Assembly: GCA_017625675.1 (NCBI GenBank)
Contig: JAGAKK010000026.1
Span: 1-32,468, forward strand
Length of the DNA: 32,468 bases
Direction: 5' to 3'
Source: Clostridia bacterium
GTDB lineage: Bacteria; Bacillota; Clostridia; UBA1212
Below the pieces are notes generated by a model, which worked only from the letters and a program-made list of their open reading frames with translations, was not told the DNA's origin and searched no databases. The stretch's first letter is position 1; every line of letters begins with the position of its first letter. Below, in pieces: positions 4,957-28,876 of the stretch. The translations under genes were made by a program, and so were the position numbers.

Positions 4957-5844
4957 ATGGGCAAAAAGATCTTTTTTACCTATGACGAACAAATCGACCT
5001 GCTCAAGAATAAAAAACAACTAATTATCGAAGACCCGAAATTTGCAAAGAACACACTAAAAAAGCTTGGCTACTTCTCCCTTATCGGAGGATATAAAGAT
5101 TTGTTTAAGCACAAACCATCGGGAAATTACATAAGAGGTGTTACCTTTGAGGAAATCACCGCTTTTTATTATTTTGACGAAGAATTAAGGACTCTATTTT
5201 TCAAGTACATACTTCACGTAGAGCGTCATCTCAAAGCGATGTTATCTTACAGCTTCTGTGAAAAATACGGGGACAGTCAGAATGCATATTTAAACGTCTG
5301 CAATTTTAATTACAGCAAGAGAAATCAAAGCGACGTTCTGAGACTTGTTCAATCACTGAAAAAGGCCACCACACTTCCCAGCAACTACGCCTATATCACA
5401 CATTACGCAGTAGCATACAAAAACGTGCCTCTCTGGGTTACTACGAACACACTCACCTTCGGTCAGATCTCAAAATTATACCAATACACCACTTCAGACA
5501 TCCGTTCAAAAATCAGTATACAATACGCAAATATCTCCGAATCTCAATTACATAAATTCATACGTATCCTTGCGCGGTGCAGAAACGTTTGCGCCCACAA
5601 CGAGAGGCTTTATTCTTTTATCTCCAATGAAGCAATCCCTGATATGCCCTTGCACAAAAAGTTGTCAATAAAGAAAATCAAAGGCCAATTTACTGCAGGA
5701 AAAAGAGACCTCTTTGCCGTGGTAATCGCACTCAGATATTTAATCGGCAATGAAGAATTCAAAAAATGTGACAGGGGGCTGCCCCCTGTCACGTTTTTTC
5801 AAACTCAACAAACAACTTGCAAAGAGCAAAAAAATCCGATATAA
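4957..5844 (+). CDS. Abi_2 (AbiD/AbiF)-family HEPN protein, probable RNase toxin or abortive-infection effector
   Basis: A 295-aa soluble protein. The start at ATG 4957 is chosen because AGGAGGA (4944-4950) sits just before it; the frame runs open to 4867, but that part is the RNA module. The family is recognised from KNTLKKLGYFSLIGGYKDLF (31-50), TFEEITAFYYFDEELR (63-78), and the HEPN-type RNxxxH motif RNVCAH (R209-H214) in a stretch ending AHNERLYSF. HEPN proteins with R-x4-H are usually metal-independent RNases; members of this family give phage exclusion or act as toxins. It is controlled with the upstream RNA module. The last 25 or so residues are odd: residues 271-279 are encoded by a terminator-like palindrome and the frame ends inside the next gene's promoter, so the tail is probably not native. 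Confidence 0.88.
   Translation: MGKKIFFTYDEQIDLLKNKKQLIIEDPKFAKNTLKKLGYFSLIGGYKDLFKHKPSGNYIRGVTFEEITAFYYFDEELRTLFFKYILHVERHLKAMLSYSFCEKYGDSQNAYLNVCNFNYSKRNQSDVLRLVQSLKKATTLPSNYAYITHYAVAYKNVPLWVTTNTLTFGQISKLYQYTTSDIRSKISIQYANISESQLHKFIRILARCRNVCAHNERLYSFISNEAIPDMPLHKKLSIKKIKGQFTAGKRDLFAVVIALRYLIGNEEFKKCDRGLPPVTFFQTQQTTCKEQKNPI
5768..5799 (+). terminator. Palindrome/terminator inside the 3' end of the Abi_2 frame
   Basis: GTGACAGGGGGC (5768-5779) is followed by one T and its exact complement (5781-5792). The preceding A6 and following T6 tract make a classic, nearly symmetric bidirectional terminator. It resembles the repeat-family hairpins (GTCAGGGGGC / GCCCCCTGAC theme) but with GTGACAG rather than GAGTCAG arms. 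It lies in frame within the Abi_2 coding sequence. Confidence 0.7.
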
Positions 5845-7912: not shown

Positions 7913-7925
7913 TCTGTTTTTTATT

Positions 7926-8268
7926 AAGCAAGCAAGCCGTAAGCCGGGTTCTGTCGCGGATGATCATCTATCTCGGCGCAATATTACTACTGCGCTCCAG
8001 CCACCTCGGAAACTGTCGGGCCGACGTAACGTTTCACAGCGGTGTTGCTCCGGATGGGGTTTACACGGCCATTATGTCACCACAATGCCGGTGAGCTCTT
8101 ACCTCGCCTTTTCATCCTTACCTGCAAAAACGCAGGCGGTAATTTTCTGTTGCACTTTCCTTGAAGTCGCCTTCACAGGGTGTTACCCTGCACCCTTGCC
8201 CTATGGAGCCCGGACTTTCCTCAGACGGTCCCTTTCGGTTGCGCCCGCGATCATCTGGCTTACTTGCC
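7926..8268 (-). ncRNA. rnpB: RNase P RNA, A type
   Basis: This is the catalytic RNA of RNase P, which matures tRNA 5' ends. On the minus strand the conserved blocks occur in order: GAGGAAAGTCCGGGCTCC (CR I), AAGGGTGC..GGTAACACCC, AAGGAAAGTGCAACAGAAA, GAGGTAAGAGCTCACCG, the GTAAACCCC block, AGATAGATGATC and ACAGAACCCGGCTTAC. GTAAGCC near the 5' end can pair with GGCTTAC at the 3' end (P1). The layout is the ancestral A type, not the B type of Bacillales. The ends are approximate, set from the promoter and from P1. It lies between spoIIIAH and nrdR with its own promoter and terminator. Confidence 0.95.
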
Positions 8269-23033: not shown

Positions 23034-23294
23034 TTAATCGTCAAATCCCTTGCCGTAGACCTTGTCAGCCTTTCTCACAGCAAGAATAATTGCAATAATA
23101 AAGCTTATGATGCTTGATACTCCGATTATTACAGGCCAGTTAAGACCTGCGCCCGTGCGGGACGTCTGTGATACGACCTCCGTTGCAATCTCCGTTGCAG
23201 CAGAAGAAGCCTCTGCATTAACGCAAAGGCTGCCTGTAAGTAACATATTAATAAATATACACGCTTTTAAAACCAACGTCTTAAAGTTTTTCAT
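23034..23294 (-). CDS. Small membrane protein, translationally coupled to the fused potCD gene
   Basis: An 86-aa protein. It has an N-terminal signal or span (LVLKACIFINMLLTGSLCVNA, likely cut after residue 27) and a short Ser/Thr/Glu-rich middle. A single membrane helix follows at about 54-72 (VIIGVSSIISFIIAIILAV), with a short basic-acidic tail RKADKVYGKGFDD. I recognise no family. The ATG at 23294 overlaps the potCD stop (ATGA) and GGAGGAG lies upstream, so it is cotranslated with the polyamine transporter. It may be a transporter accessory protein; nothing else supports this. Confidence 0.6.
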   Translation of the reverse strand: MKNFKTLVLKACIFINMLLTGSLCVNAEASSAATEIATEVVSQTSRTGAGLNWPVIIGVSSIISFIIAIILAVRKADKVYGKGFDD

Positions 23295-25225
23295 CAGCGC
23301 ACAATCTCCTCCCAAAGGCTTTCATAGTACGCCCTCGTTTCATTTGGCAAATCATGGTAATACTCTACGGGCGGAAGTGTCTCCGGGTAGAGGTATTTGT
23401 TGCCCTTAAGGGAATACTCGTCATTGTTAAGAACCGCGGTGTTAGGCGTTGCATAGCAAAGATACTCTGCATTGGCAAGGGCCACGTCAGGCTCCAGCAT
23501 AAAGTTTATAAACATAAGCGCTGCCTCGTAGTTCTGGGCGCTTGACGGAACACACATAGAGTCTATGAAAATATTAGTTCCCTCTTTCGGATAGAAAAAT
23601 TCAAGGTCGGGGTTTACGTCCTGCATTGTCAGGAAGTCTCCTGCGTAATACGGTGCAACAGCCGCATTTCCGCCCTCCATCTTATTGAAAATCTCATCCA
23701 TTACACGGCCCTGAAGCACGCTGTTCTGAGCTTTAAGCTTCTCAGCAGCCTTATCCCACTCCGCCTTGTCGGTGCTGTTTATATCAAGTCCCAGATAAAA
23801 CTGAGCTGTGGCAAAGGAGTCACGGGGATTGTTGAAGTTAAGAATATCGCCTGCGTACTTTTCGTCCCACATAATGCTCCAGCTGTCAGGAGTTTCCGTA
23901 ACAACCGTTGAGTCGTATATCACGCCTACAAGACCTACGTTGTAAGGCACTGAATACTCGTCCTTGGGATCAAAATACTGTTCCTTGTACTGCTCATCAA
24001 TATATTTATAGTTTGATATTTTCGAGGTGTCCACCTTCCGGAGCATTCCCTCGCTTATCATTCTCTGAATCATATAGTCAGAAGGAATTACGATATCCAC
24101 GGATACTGCCCCGCTCTTAAGCTTTGAATACATCGCCTCGTTGCTGGCAGTGCTGTCGTCGTAATTTACGTCAATTCCGGAAACCTCTTCAAAGGCCTTT
24201 ATAACGTCAAGAGTGTCCTCTGAACCGTCGGAAATATACTCGCCCCAGTTGATGATGTTAAGCGTAGTTCCCTCAAGCCCTGAATAATCACCTTCCAGCT
24301 GAAGCTCAGATGCCACTGAGCTCTTGTTTTTAGGAATCACTATTGCCACCACCAGGCATACACATACAGCCGCGGCCACCGCGCCTATTCCGATGCGTTT
24401 TGCCTTTTTCTTTTTAGGTGATTCTTCCACAGACTTTGCCTTCACAACGTTTGAAAGCACCAGAAGCAGAAGCACCGTTACGAAAATAAGGCTGGAAAGA
24501 GCGTACATATCAGGCTTAACGGTTTTCTTCGTCATTGAAAAAATCATCAGAGGAAGTGTCTGGAAGCCTGTTCCGTTGGTGTAGTAGCTTATTACAAAGT
24601 CGTCAAGTGACAACGTAAATGACATCATAAGTCCCGAGATAATACCGGGCATTATGGAAGGCATTACCACCATAAAAAATGCCTTTACAGGAGGCGCGCC
24701 AAGATCCTGAGCGGCCTCGTATATTCTCCTGTCGGTCTGGCGCAGCTTTGGCAATACGTTCAGAATCACGTAAGGCAAGTTGAACGTAATATGGGCAATG
24801 AGAAGTGTAAAAAAGTTCAGCTTGTCTGCAGAGCCCACCATCGTACCCACAAATACAAACAGAAGCATTAACGACACACCGGTAACAATATCAGGATTCA
24901 TCATCGGAATATTTGTAACCGTCATCATCGTTGACTGCACGTATTTGTTTTTAAGATTATATATGCCTACCGCTGCAACAGTTCCCAGCACAGTTGCAAT
25001 GGCAGAGGAAAGCACCGCCAATATCAGTGTGTTTTTAAGAGCATTCATTATGTCGCTTCTTGAAAACATCTCAACGTACCATTTAAAGGAAAAACCTTCA
25101 AATACAGAGGTACTTCTGCCTGAGTTAAAGGAGAACAGCACCATTATGAGCAACGGCGCATACAAAAAAATGTAGATCAGCGAGGTAATAATACCGTCTG
25201 CCACTTTCATTCCGCGGTTTTTCAT
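23294..25225 (-). CDS. potC-potD: Fused spermidine/putrescine permease (PotC) and substrate-binding protein (PotD)
   Basis: A 643-aa fusion. Residues 1-265 are the PotC permease, with six spans and the EAA loop EAAQDLGAPPVKAFFMVVMP (170-189). A cytosolic linker KSVEESPKKKKAKR (264-277) leads to a seventh membrane helix (about 278-298), and then the periplasm-type polyamine-binding domain from about 318 (LNIINWGEYISDG, VPYNVGLVGVIYD, LPPVEYYHDLP at the C-terminus). The seventh helix looks like the former signal peptide kept as an anchor. ATG 25225 overlaps the potB stop (ATGA). Together with PotA and PotB it forms a polyamine importer; the single-chain form fixes one binding domain per permease. 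Confidence 0.94.
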   Translation of the reverse strand: MKNRGMKVADGIITSLIYIFLYAPLLIMVLFSFNSGRSTSVFEGFSFKWYVEMFSRSDIMNALKNTLILAVLSSAIATVLGTVAAVGIYNLKNKYVQSTMMTVTNIPMMNPDIVTGVSLMLLFVFVGTMVGSADKLNFFTLLIAHITFNLPYVILNVLPKLRQTDRRIYEAAQDLGAPPVKAFFMVVMPSIMPGIISGLMMSFTLSLDDFVISYYTNGTGFQTLPLMIFSMTKKTVKPDMYALSSLIFVTVLLLLVLSNVVKAKSVEESPKKKKAKRIGIGAVAAAVCVCLVVAIVIPKNKSSVASELQLEGDYSGLEGTTLNIINWGEYISDGSEDTLDVIKAFEEVSGIDVNYDDSTASNEAMYSKLKSGAVSVDIVIPSDYMIQRMISEGMLRKVDTSKISNYKYIDEQYKEQYFDPKDEYSVPYNVGLVGVIYDSTVVTETPDSWSIMWDEKYAGDILNFNNPRDSFATAQFYLGLDINSTDKAEWDKAAEKLKAQNSVLQGRVMDEIFNKMEGGNAAVAPYYAGDFLTMQDVNPDLEFFYPKEGTNIFIDSMCVPSSAQNYEAALMFINFMLEPDVALANAEYLCYATPNTAVLNNDEYSLKGNKYLYPETLPPVEYYHDLPNETRAYYESLWEEIVR

Positions 25226-26049
25226 GCCACAAGTCCCCCTTCCATATCGTCATCGGAAAACTTGCTCATAATCATCATACTCACAAGTATAAGCACCATA
25301 AGCACAAGGGAAAGCGCCGCGCCTAAATTGTAGTTGTACTGCACCTGCATCTGACGTTCAATAGTATCACCGATAAGCATTATCGTACCGCCGCCCAGCT
25401 TCTGTGAAATATAGAAGGTGCTGACAGAGGGCACGAACACCATTGCAATACCTGAAACAACGCCGGGTATGCTAAGGGGCAGAATGAGTCTTTTCCACGT
25501 GTTGAAACCGTTACAGCCAAGGTCCCTTGCCGCCTCGATAAGGGTGTTGTCCATCTTTGACATTACCGTGTAGATAGGCAGTATCATATAGGGCAGATAG
25601 TTATACACCATACCCAGAATCACTGCGCCGGGCGTTCCTATCATTGTAACAGGATCCAGACCGAAAAGGCCGAGAAAATTGTTAATAATGCCGTTTTTCT
25701 CAAGAATGTTCATCCATGAGTACGTTCTTATGAGAAGGTTCATCCACATAGGGAGCATCACAAGAAGCATCTGCATACGCTGTGAATTCTCGGAGCGCTT
25801 GCTCAGAAAATATGCAAAAGGATATGCAAGAAGAAGCGTGATCACCGTGGCAATCGCAGAATAAAGCAGAGAGATTCCGAAAACACCGGAGTATTCTGTC
25901 AGTTGTTTAATATTGTCAAAAGTAAAGTGTCCTGCCTTGTCGGTAAAAGCATAATAGCACACGATAACAAGGGGCACGATAATGAAGATTGTAGCCCAGA
26001 TTGCGTAAGGCGCATTGACAATAGTGTTAATTAAGGATTTTTTCTTCAT
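25222..26049 (-). CDS. potB: Spermidine/putrescine ABC transporter permease PotB
   Basis: A 275-aa membrane permease with six spans. Its EAA loop is [22 protein letters not shown]. The N-terminus ([28 protein letters not shown]) is typical. It pairs with the PotC half of the fused protein. It overlaps the potA stop by four bases (ATGA), so potABC are translationally coupled. Confidence 0.95.
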
Positions 26050-27197
26050 TCCTCGTCCTCCCCAAGTTCAATGTCGGGATTACTGATGTCGTCCATCTCG
26101 TCACTGTAAGAACTGTAGTCACCGAACTTGCCGGAGTATTTGGATTTCTTCATAATGTGAATGGCATCGGGCTCAATGAAAAGACCTACCACGTCTCCCA
26201 CCTTGCTCTCGTCAGTGGTCTGCACCATCCACTTAAAGTTTTCAACGTCAATGATTATCTCGTAATGTACGCCCCTGAAAGTAACCTGTGTTACCTCGCC
26301 TGTAAGCATACCCTTCTCAACGGGAACGATATCCACGTCCTCAGGACGAATTACCACATCAACGGGCTCATTCTTCCCGAAGCCCTTGTCAAGGCACTTA
26401 AAGTCAACACCGTCAAGGCACACCCTGTAATCCTCACGCATAATACCGTCAAGGATATTCGACTCACCGATAAAGTCAGCCACAAAGGCATTTTCAGGCT
26501 CATTATATATGTCAATAGGCGTACCGATCTGCTGAATTTTTCCCTCGTGCATAACAACCACTGTATCAGACATGGAGAGAGCCTCCTCCTGATCGTGGGT
26601 TACGTATACGAAAGTGATACCAAGCTTTCTCTGCATGGCCTTAAGCTCGTTCTGCATATCCTTTCGAAGCTTCAGGTCAAGGGCCGCCAAGGGCTCGTCA
26701 AGAAGGAGCACCTTAGGTCTTTTTATCGCAGCTCTTGCGATAGCAACACGCTGCTGCTGACCGCCGGAAAGGCGCGAAATATCACGCTTCTCAAAACCCT
26801 GCAAATTTACAAGGCGAAGCATCTCGTCAACACGCTCTTTGATCTCCTTTTCGGGCACCTTGTCCACACGAAGACCGAAAGCGATATTATCGTATACATT
26901 ATAATTCGGGAAAAGGGCATACCTCTGGAAAATGGTATTGACCGGCCTTTTGTGAGGCGGCAGGTCGTTCACCCTGTTAGACTCAAAATATACGTCGCCG
27001 GACTGAGGATTAATAAAACCTGCGATAATACGCAAGGTCGTGGTTTTTCCGCAACCGGACTGACCTAAAAGTGTGACAAACTCTCTGTCCTTAATCGACA
27101 GGGAAAGGTTGTCCAGAATAACATCATCGTCAAATTTCACGGTGATGTCTTTTAATTGAATGATGTTCTTTTCTGCAATATTTGCTTCGTTACTCAT
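26046..27197 (-). CDS. potA: Spermidine/putrescine ABC transporter ATPase PotA
   Basis: A 383-aa ATPase. Walker A is GQSGCGKTT, the Q-loop is [21 protein letters not shown] (split by its position here), the signature is LSGGQQQR, Walker B is [12 protein letters not shown] and the H-loop is [16 protein letters not shown] domain ([13 protein letters not shown] .. [10 protein letters not shown]) follows, then an acidic tail. The start is ATG 27197, which has AAAGGGGG nine bases upstream; ATG 27206 touches that site and the longer frame to 27260 is the leader. Expressed from the promoter at 27560-27588 through a long leader. Confidence 0.96.
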
Positions 27198-27553
27198 TTT
27201 TTGCATCCCCCTTTGCGGTAAAGACCGCGTACAGCCGTATACAGCTCTGCGCGAACCCACCTCCGACTAATCGCCGCCCCCGCAAAGAGTTTTTACAATG
27301 ATATATACGCAGCAATGCCCCCTTCAGCCGGGGCAATATCGCTTAAATATCATTGCAGCATGCGATTGCTCAAGTCTGCTATATCCATGTCAGGCACAGA
27401 CAACGGTTCCTGTTAAGAACTGCCGAAAGTGTAAAATCTGCCATACCTTTGCCTTTGGCAGAATTTTGTTGGCACAGATGCAAAAATCGTGCTAATTCAA
27501 TTGTATAGTAACAGTGTCTGTTTTCTCTCTGAGATTTCAGAAAACACCGTCCA
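27198..27553 (-). promoter_or_regulatory. Long structured 5' leader of the pot operon
   Basis: No gene is credible here. On the minus strand the leader shows three structures. (1) A long hairpin at 27296-27355 has nine perfect outer pairs (CAATGATAT/ATATCATTG) and an inner TTGCCCC/GGGGGCA-type helix. (2) A shorter hairpin at 27433-27467 has arms AAAATTCTGCC and GGCAGATTTT. (3) Near the start codon, CCGCAAAG (27211-27218), which overlaps the Shine-Dalgarno, can pair with CTTTGCGG (27280-27287). Alternatively GCGGT/ACCGC (27215-27219, 27224-27228) forms a small hairpin that leaves the site free. The two helices use the same bases, so they compete. No known riboswitch class is recognised. Confidence 0.5.
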
Positions 27554-27559
27554 TTCTCG

Positions 27560-27588
27560 ATTATAAACTATGCCGTATTAATTGGCAA
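27560..27588 (-). promoter_or_regulatory. Sigma-A promoter of the pot operon
   Basis: On the minus strand a -35 TTGCCA (27583-27588), a 17-base spacer and a -10 TATAAT (27560-27565). It predicts a start near 27553 and a leader of about 355 nt. No terminator was found between the upstream ATPase gene and this promoter. Confidence 0.65.
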
Positions 27589-27633: not shown

Positions 27634-28845
27634 TTACCATGTTTCTGACAATAAAAACTTGCGTATATTCAGATGCTTTATTCCGTTGCGACTAAAATCA
27701 AATTCATCCAATGAAACTACATATTTGGGGTAATTATCCCGTATCTCCTCAAGACTTCCAAATTCGCGCTCTAAAGTGTCTTCTGTCGCCATAATATATG
27801 TTACTTGAACGTATATTTTTTCTCCCTGTCGATTGGCAACGAAATCCACTTCTTTTTCTTTCACTTTTCCTACGTTAACCTTATAACCTCGACGGAGCAA
27901 CTCCATAAAAACTATATTTTCCAAAATCAAGTTAATATTCTTTTGATTTCCGCCAAAAACAGCCTCCCGTATTCCGTGGTCCGCCATATAATATTTTTCA
28001 TTAGAAGACAAAATCTGTTTACCCTGAATATCTTCTCTTTTCACTTGATAAAAGAGATATGCATTAAGTGAATATTTTAAATAATTAAGAACCGTTTCGG
28101 GCGCTATTGTACGATGCTCACTTTTAAAATATTTTGATACAGAGTTTGCCGAAAAATTTGTTCCGATATTAGCTATAACATAAGTATTTATTTTTTCCAA
28201 CAGATCCACGTCTCTTATCATATTGCGTTTTACAATATCTTTTAAAACAACAGAATTATAAAGTTCTTCAAGATACATGCGGGCAGGTTCTTCCTCATAT
28301 TTTAAATTGCTTAAATACGGCATTCCTCCAAACCGTAAATATTTTTCAAAACACTCCGATTCACTTGCCTCTTGAAAATCGTTACCATAAAGCTGCACAA
28401 ACTCAGAAAAAGAAAAAGGATAAATAACAAATTCCACGTAGCGACCGGCCAGATAGGTAGCCAATTCCCCGGAAAGCAATTTTGCATTGGAGCCTGTAAT
28501 ATAGATATCACAATCAATGTCAACACGAAGAGAGTTTATACACCGCTCCCAGTCCTGAACTTCCTGAATTTCATCAAGAAACAAATATAATTTTCCGTTA
28601 ATATTTTTATACGCATTAATGATTTCATCATACAACGACCGAGCGGTACGAAGATGCTCCAACCCCATTTTTTCAAAATTAAAGCACAAAAAATTTTCAA
28701 CCTTACGGCCTCTCTTCATCAATTCTCTGCGCACCAATTCAAGCATAACGGACTTACCGCTTCTGCGAATGCCTGTCATGACCTTAATTAAGTCTGTATC
28801 AATAAATGGTCTTATACGCTTCATATATAATTCGCGTTCTATCAT
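27634..28845 (-). CDS. AAA-family ATPase with C-terminal DUF4143
   Basis: A 403-aa protein of the widespread AAA_14/DUF4143 group. Walker A is GIRRSGKS, Walker B is YLFLDEIQEV, followed by ITGSNAKLLSGELATYLAGRY. DUF4143 follows from about residue 200, ending in a nuclease-like core EKEVDFVANRQGEKIYVQVTY in which the usual E-x-K position reads QVT, so catalytic residues may be lost. Its function is unknown; such genes are often accessory and laterally moved. ATG 28845 follows GAGGTGAT. It is A/T-rich compared with its neighbours, which fits a transferred gene. The upstream region has repeated AGTTATAACT palindromes. Confidence 0.9.
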   Translation of the reverse strand: MIERELYMKRIRPFIDTDLIKVMTGIRRSGKSVMLELVRRELMKRGRKVENFLCFNFEKMGLEHLRTARSLYDEIINAYKNINGKLYLFLDEIQEVQDWERCINSLRVDIDCDIYITGSNAKLLSGELATYLAGRYVEFVIYPFSFSEFVQLYGNDFQEASESECFEKYLRFGGMPYLSNLKYEEEPARMYLEELYNSVVLKDIVKRNMIRDVDLLEKINTYVIANIGTNFSANSVSKYFKSEHRTIAPETVLNYLKYSLNAYLFYQVKREDIQGKQILSSNEKYYMADHGIREAVFGGNQKNINLILENIVFMELLRRGYKVNVGKVKEKEVDFVANRQGEKIYVQVTYIMATEDTLEREFGSLEEIRDNYPKYVVSLDEFDFSRNGIKHLNIRKFLLSETW

Positions 28846-28876
28846 TATGATCACCTCATACCAATTTATCAATCAC

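Follow-up and report, generated by a model that had tools for sequence, protein, structure and literature searches.

The window analyzed here, the whole 32,468-nt stretch of contig JAGAKK010000026.1 from a Clostridia bacterium (assembly GCA_017625675.1), encodes a polyamine-type transporter whose first gene, potA, is preceded by a long leader, raising the question of whether this leader controls potA and, if so, what it senses. Polyamine riboswitches have long been expected, and the portions of PMC10853860 drawn on here report one class, a spermidine riboswitch that is a variant of SAM-I (Salvail et al. 2023). The furthest-reaching interpretation, with a probability of roughly 0.55, is that the leader belongs to a new class of polyamine riboswitch, unrelated in structure to the SAM-I-derived spermidine class, which would control import in many gut Clostridia through a double long-range pseudoknot that locks the region from the Shine-Dalgarno sequence to the start codon, and which would exist in two forms, a compact one of about 190 nt and an expanded one of up to about 450 nt.

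The operon lies on the minus strand (Table 1) and consists of potA, potB, and a potC-potD fusion. Within the fusion, which contains BPD_transp_1 and SBP domains, the PotC and PotD models match separate halves, each under its cutoff. The start of potA is taken as an ATG; a GTG within the leader begins the longer potA frame in the program-made list of open reading frames (ORFs). Downstream of potCD is a 93-amino-acid ORF (23034-23315, minus strand) that by eye has a single membrane span and what looks like a signal peptide and that has no match in Pfam or NCBIfam, and upstream of the pot promoter is a gene for an AAA_14/DUF4143 ATPase (27634-28872, minus strand).

A strong promoter about 355 nt before potA, as claimed in a preliminary description of this DNA, was recovered by a promoter scan: the near-consensus pair predicts a start near 27553 and a leader of about 356 nt. 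Of 40 long-form leaders (defined below), 28 have promoter-like pairs upstream of the RNA, and in 14 of those 28 the -10 box ends 13 to 14 nt before UUUUGCAU (P1 5' strand), such that the transcript would start just before P1; in the window and some other leaders, the predicted start is 30 to 70 nt earlier than this. A simple pattern scan, applied to the window, found no terminator-like site on the minus strand within the leader, which makes translation the likely level of control.

Table 1. Positions of the leader elements and pot genes in the window, ordered 5' to 3' along the transcript
Feature	Position	Strand	Basis or remark
Promoter of the pot operon, TTGCCA-17-TATAAT	27560..27588	minus	Scan; 11 of 12 consensus matches
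Extra 5' hairpin, located between the promoter and the conserved RNA	27510..27551	minus	Minimum-energy fold; no conserved block in alignment
P1 5' strand UUUUUGCAUC, partner GAUGCAAAAA before the start codon	27477..27486	minus	Pairing in long-form members
Junction UGUGCCAAC	27468..27476	minus	Near-invariant UGUGCYRAC among long forms
P2 hairpin, loop GGCAAAGG (27446-27453)	27435..27465	minus	Stem variable
PK1 strand A1 (CACUUUCGGC), long-range helix	27422..27431	minus	Covaries with 27258-27267
P4 hairpin, GUUC-UUAACAG-GAAC	27406..27420	minus	Conserved in alignment
P5 hairpin (GUCUG...CAGAC)	27368..27404	minus	Variable stem at a fixed place in the alignment; by eye only
PK2 strand A2 (AAUCGC), long-range helix	27362..27367	minus	Covaries with 27269-27274
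P6 hairpin, beginning in conserved GCUGC	27294..27359	minus	Minimum-energy fold; arms covary
P7 5' strand, anti-Shine-Dalgarno CUCUUUGCGG	27280..27289	minus	No variation in the pattern-found set, in part by construction
PK2 strand B2 (GCGAUU)	27269..27274	minus	Covariation with A2
PK1 strand B1 (GUCGGAGGUG)	27258..27267	minus	Covariation with A1; pair types per position
P9 domain CGCG...CGCG, inner hairpin AGCUGUAUACGGCU (27233-27246)	27226..27253	minus	Alignment; minimum-energy fold
Alternative local hairpin GCGGU-CUUU-ACCGC	27215..27228	minus	Excludes P7 and outer P9
P7 3' strand CCGCAAAGGG	27209..27218	minus	Overlaps Shine-Dalgarno AAAGGGGG (27207-27214)
P1 3' strand GAUGCAAAAA	27198..27207	minus	Between Shine-Dalgarno and AUG
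potA, 383 amino acids	26046..27197	minus	Start taken as ATG at 27197
potB, permease	25222..26049	minus	Best NCBIfam model PRK09497 PotB, under cutoff; Pfam BPD_transp_1
potC-potD fusion, permease plus substrate-binding protein	23294..25225	minus	643-amino-acid ORF

The predicted fold of the leader has an energy of -123.8 kcal/mol, as opposed to -99.3 kcal/mol for dinucleotide shuffles, and beats 100 of 100 such shuffles (z = -4.7). The conserved RNA runs from the P1 5' strand through UGUGCYRAC, P2, P3 (in many members), A1, P4, P5, and A2 to GCUGC, followed by P6, the P7 5' strand, B2, B1, the conserved GGGUUCG, the P9 domain that comes after it, the P7 3' strand with the Shine-Dalgarno sequence, the P1 3' strand, and AUG. 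The conserved junctions of the RNA are UGUGCYRAC, GGGUUCGCG, and GCUGC. By eye, the P4 stem occurs as GUUC/GAAC, GUUU/AAAC, and GUUC/GGAC. Two elements noticed at the outset reappear in this architecture: a 60-nt near-perfect hairpin, which in the minimum-energy fold is P6, and two mutually exclusive helices, which are P7 (10 bp, over the Shine-Dalgarno sequence) and the alternative local hairpin. Additional to that description are the A1-B1 and A2-B2 helices and the pairing of the 5' end with the region of the start codon. A local hairpin drawn by eye, P8 (GGCU with AGYC), was dropped because its bases belong to B2 and B1, which take part in the covarying long-range helices.

The regulatory-leader idea had been staked on conservation and covariation in relatives, and both proved to be strong. 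RNAalifold returned no double changes among eight close relatives, a set too similar for the purpose, such that a wider one was needed. In the wider set, each strand was paired with its own partner and with mismatched partners in permutation tests from which identical strand pairs had been removed, this being the only correction for kinship. For PK1 (A1-B1), the energies were -12.9 kcal/mol for own and -8.7 kcal/mol for mismatched partners (27 distinct strand pairs from 41 leaders; z = -8.1), and 0 of 20,000 permutations were as good; the 41 are the full leaders kept from 43, with L070 and L079 dropped at contig ends. Counting from the outer end of PK1, position 5 is occupied by U-A, C-G, and A-U pairs and position 7 by C-G, A-U, and G-C pairs (19 of 21 distinct equal-length rows, with two bulged rows left out). 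For PK2 (A2-B2), the corresponding energies were -9.7 and -6.1 kcal/mol (z = -8.4; 0 of 20,000 permutations as good) over 37 distinct pairs of 44 (44 of 46 kept, L055 and L092 dropped), in a test weakened by some ten A2 strands that the script picked at the wrong place. The arms of P6 yielded -11.1 as opposed to -6.6 kcal/mol (z = -11.3; 45 of 46 kept, L055 dropped), and the long-range duplex of the compact form yielded -26.8 as opposed to -18.3 kcal/mol (z = -10.6; 27 of 30 members, with L125, L133, and L139 dropped and L097 not entered), again with 0 of 20,000 permutations as good in either case.

The two helices nearest the ribosome site hardly vary, so that covariation says little about either. 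P1, which is nearly invariant, can form in every one of the 45 long-form members whose 3' end is complete; its covariation is not significant (z = -1.3, with L049, which lacks the 3' strand, entered as zero), and a single double change, C to U with G to A, is present in L071 and L082. For P7, the model search turned up CCC and UCC variants of the 5' strand. The pattern scan fixes CTTTGCGGGG and GGGTTCGCGCA, whose invariance in that set is therefore by construction.

A1-B1 and A2-B2 are nested and are crossed by P7, forming a predicted H-type pseudoknot in which the Shine-Dalgarno sequence lies in the second stem. The strand order (A1, A2, P7-5', B2, B1, P7-3') is that of an H-type translational layout (S1-5', S2-5', S1-3', S2-3', with the Shine-Dalgarno sequence in S2), and the S1 strands covary. 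The leader is a conserved, structured 5' RNA with covariation support, as is generally asked of a riboswitch. The predicted fold pairs the stretch from CCGCAAAGGG to GAUGCAAAAA and places the Shine-Dalgarno sequence inside P7. There is good support for a regulatory RNA that governs access to the ribosome site of potA. An H-type pseudoknot with the Shine-Dalgarno sequence in one stem is likewise characteristic of the translational riboswitches preQ1-I/II and SAM-II, which are much smaller RNAs; the potA leader resembles them in this layout but differs in its length (about 190 to 450 nt across forms), in its several added hairpins, and in the pairing of its 5' end up to the start codon, and no sequence relation to them was found.

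The structure also bears on three alternatives to a small-molecule riboswitch. A regulator or a Pot subunit might bind the folded RNA and repress translation, a role for which a long conserved RNA with many invariant bases would be suited; placement of the Shine-Dalgarno sequence in a pseudoknot, a layout known among metabolite riboswitches, resembles those riboswitches instead and makes protein binding quite improbable. Leader-peptide attenuation, in which ribosome stalling senses an amino acid or a polyamine, controls other polyamine genes, such as speF, which is preceded by speFL, but no ORF in the potA leaders is conserved in place or length, and 36 of 46 leaders contain no Shine-Dalgarno-preceded ORF of at least 10 codons, rendering this mechanism exceedingly unlikely. 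It is also very unlikely that the leader is a general responder to cations or temperature that folds better with Mg2+, polyamine, or cold and has no specific pocket: polyamines do bind RNA generally (as stated in the portions of PMC10853860 drawn on here), but the long, near-invariant, and apparently unpaired runs UGUGCYRAC and GGGUUCG exceed what a thermometer or charge sensor needs.

The distribution of the RNA follows that of potA. Loci for the comparison of potA leaders were collected by searching 58 related genomes for PotA. All nine genomes of the window's family and one genome (G043) of another family have the conserved leader, in one copy each; in front of potA in the remaining class members compared (L012-L031), no such leader was seen. 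A covariance model, R1, was built from the 3' domain and matched each of the nine family genomes once, as well as 4 of 391 genomes of the class. The window has another R1 match (5706-5767; 18.9 bits), which was discounted as chance. A pattern scan of a species-genome collection (84,980 species by its description) produced 47 loci, 42 of which match R1 at 60 bits or more, making 43 long-form loci with the window; the five without an R1 match (L043, L048, L059, L063, and L064) were attributed to chance. The named genomes are mostly metagenome assemblies, and stricter filters were applied whenever a search covered more than 40 genomes. There is exactly one model match per genome in all 34 genomes searched behind the pattern loci and in all 43 long-form genomes overall, and the leader's single occurrence in its own genome does not fit a repeat element. 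The gene directly downstream is potA in 43 of 43 long-form loci (41 of 43 at first, then two more after extension of cut contigs), an association with genes of one pathway such as is generally expected of riboswitches.

Searches with further models extend this association to a shorter form. A model built from 42 sequences (R2) was run on 295 genomes from the order of one carrier, where it matched 13, 11 of them new, and on 398 genomes from the phylum, where it matched 2. All 14 loci from the order search, duplicates included, precede potA. Six of the loci from the 11 new genomes (L097-L102) are compact or intermediate, at about 190 to 250 nt. A further model, R3, which covers the 3' domain of the compact form, had matches in 10 of 391 genomes of the class. 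Within the family of one carrier, 50 of 200 genomes had R3 matches, 51 in total, and 49 of these matches adjoin potA. Matches lacking an adjoining potA, namely, L161 and L162 in the family search (26 to 27 bits) and L110-L112 in the class search (24 to 27 bits), were taken as chance. R3 recovers the window itself (38.5 bits; E = 7e-7), and some members carry GGGUAUCGCGCAGAGCU-like blocks close to the GGGUUCGCGCAGAGCU of the long form, on which grounds the long and compact forms are taken as related. With duplicates removed, the distinct potA-linked loci number 96, comprising 48 long and 48 compact or intermediate forms.

A PotA tree of 85 rows places the PotAs that have the RNA in one supported clade (69 rows; support, 97/96), within which L012 is, by eye, the single member without the RNA. 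The PotAs of the window's family (L002-L011) sit in two separate parts of the tree, and all nine genomes carry the RNA, suggesting that the pot operon and its leader have moved laterally and travel together.

The leader had been said to match no known riboswitch class, which holds against Rfam 15: at both gathering and relaxed thresholds, it gives only chance-level or unrelated matches, with none to a SAM family, preQ1, SAM-II, T-box, or the potC RNA (RF01751). The only Rfam 15 family found in the window is the class A bacterial RNase P RNA (7925-8266, minus strand; 268.7 bits). The SAM-I-variant spermidine riboswitch acts, according to the portions of PMC10853860 drawn on here, by transcription termination before biosynthesis genes, and the word potA is absent from the text of that article. 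Polyamine-responsive OFF control of polyamine genes, proposed here and shown there, would be common to the two. Unlike that riboswitch, the leader RNA is pseudoknotted at the Shine-Dalgarno sequence, precedes an importer gene, and matches no Rfam SAM family, and neither a SAM-I fold, by Rfam 15, nor a site for premature transcription termination, by the simple pattern scan of the window, was found for it; it is a different RNA.

Other candidate RNAs near polyamine transport genes are also distinct from the leader. The potC motif (RF01751) is similarly a candidate RNA associated with a pot gene but is listed as marine only in a table of PMC2864571, and the leader has no RF01751 match. The potE motif (WRC-18-1), also a candidate RNA before a polyamine transport gene, differs in host, gene, and structure: as given in the sections of PMC8632094 used, it occurs in Veillonella and environmental samples before the potE antiporter gene, at about 200 nt from the gene, with weak covariation and no obvious expression platform. 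No report of a potA-leader RNA was found in the open-license portion of PMC or in the available parts of the motif surveys PMC11109978, PMC8632094, PMC6429828, and PMC2864571. By its modeled structure, the leader RNA appears to work like a pseudoknot translational riboswitch, and it belongs to no family tested.

The identity of the ligand can be approached from the genes that the carriers possess. Among 40 carrier handles searched for spermidine synthase (PF01564), 29 had no match, 5 a weak match, and 6 a strong match (E = 3e-56 or better), one genome having been entered twice, as G043 and G416; all six carriers with a strong match have compact RNAs. With a strong match in only 6 of 40, most carriers searched probably depend on import, and the small number of strong spermidine synthases fits feedback on import. 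Together with the near-exclusive link to the pot operon, it points to direct polyamine sensing, and a polyamine is the most economical candidate ligand. Pot-type transporters can carry other substrates, so the gene link leaves the ligand unfixed, and the same pseudoknotted translational riboswitch might respond to another amine or amino acid carried by such transporters or to a metal ion. The PotB and PotCD models, which fall under their curated cutoffs, leave the substrate uncertain and so allow for a nonpolyamine ligand, but this is unlikely given that PotA reaches the cutoffs of both NF043075 (550.2 bits against 550; spermidine/putrescine equivalog) and TIGR01187 (364 bits) and that most carriers searched are without a strong spermidine synthase, as expected of polyamine importers.

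Overall, the leader is probably a riboswitch-like, pseudoknot-based translational OFF switch for the importer operon potAB(CD), with spermidine or putrescine as its most likely ligand. In the proposed folded state, A1 and A2 would pair with B1 and B2, two strands that closely follow the anti-Shine-Dalgarno strand; P7, the other stem of the H-type pseudoknot, would bury the Shine-Dalgarno sequence; and, through P1, the 5' end would pair with the bases between the Shine-Dalgarno sequence and AUG. With P7 and P1 both paired, the entire initiation region would be double stranded and PotA would not be made. This closed fold would be stabilized by the ligand, which would accumulate through import and is most likely spermidine or putrescine; without the ligand, the alternative local hairpin would remove CCGC from P7, freeing the ribosome site. 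This GCGG...CCGC hairpin can form in each of the 45 long-form members that have a complete 3' end and would expose AAAGGGGG, giving a candidate expression platform with two exclusive states; by eye, the hairpin was not seen in the compact form. The loop of P2 is a copy of the ribosome-site GCAAAGG and could pair with the anti-Shine-Dalgarno strand, both being invariant where present; this Shine-Dalgarno-like loop would perhaps remove CUUUGC from P7. GCAAAG is present in the loop in 34 of 45 long-form members and absent in 11, so this pairing cannot be essential.

If the polyamine reading is true, the potA leader would be a second, structurally unrelated polyamine riboswitch candidate, situated on the importer side, and would reveal how spermidine uptake is metered in bacteria that, for the most part, seem unable to synthesize it. 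The natural compact form and the natural double changes offer ready-made constructs for testing both ligand and mechanism. Even with another ligand, the leader would represent a large, single-copy, and highly conserved orphan RNA class that is absent from Rfam 15.
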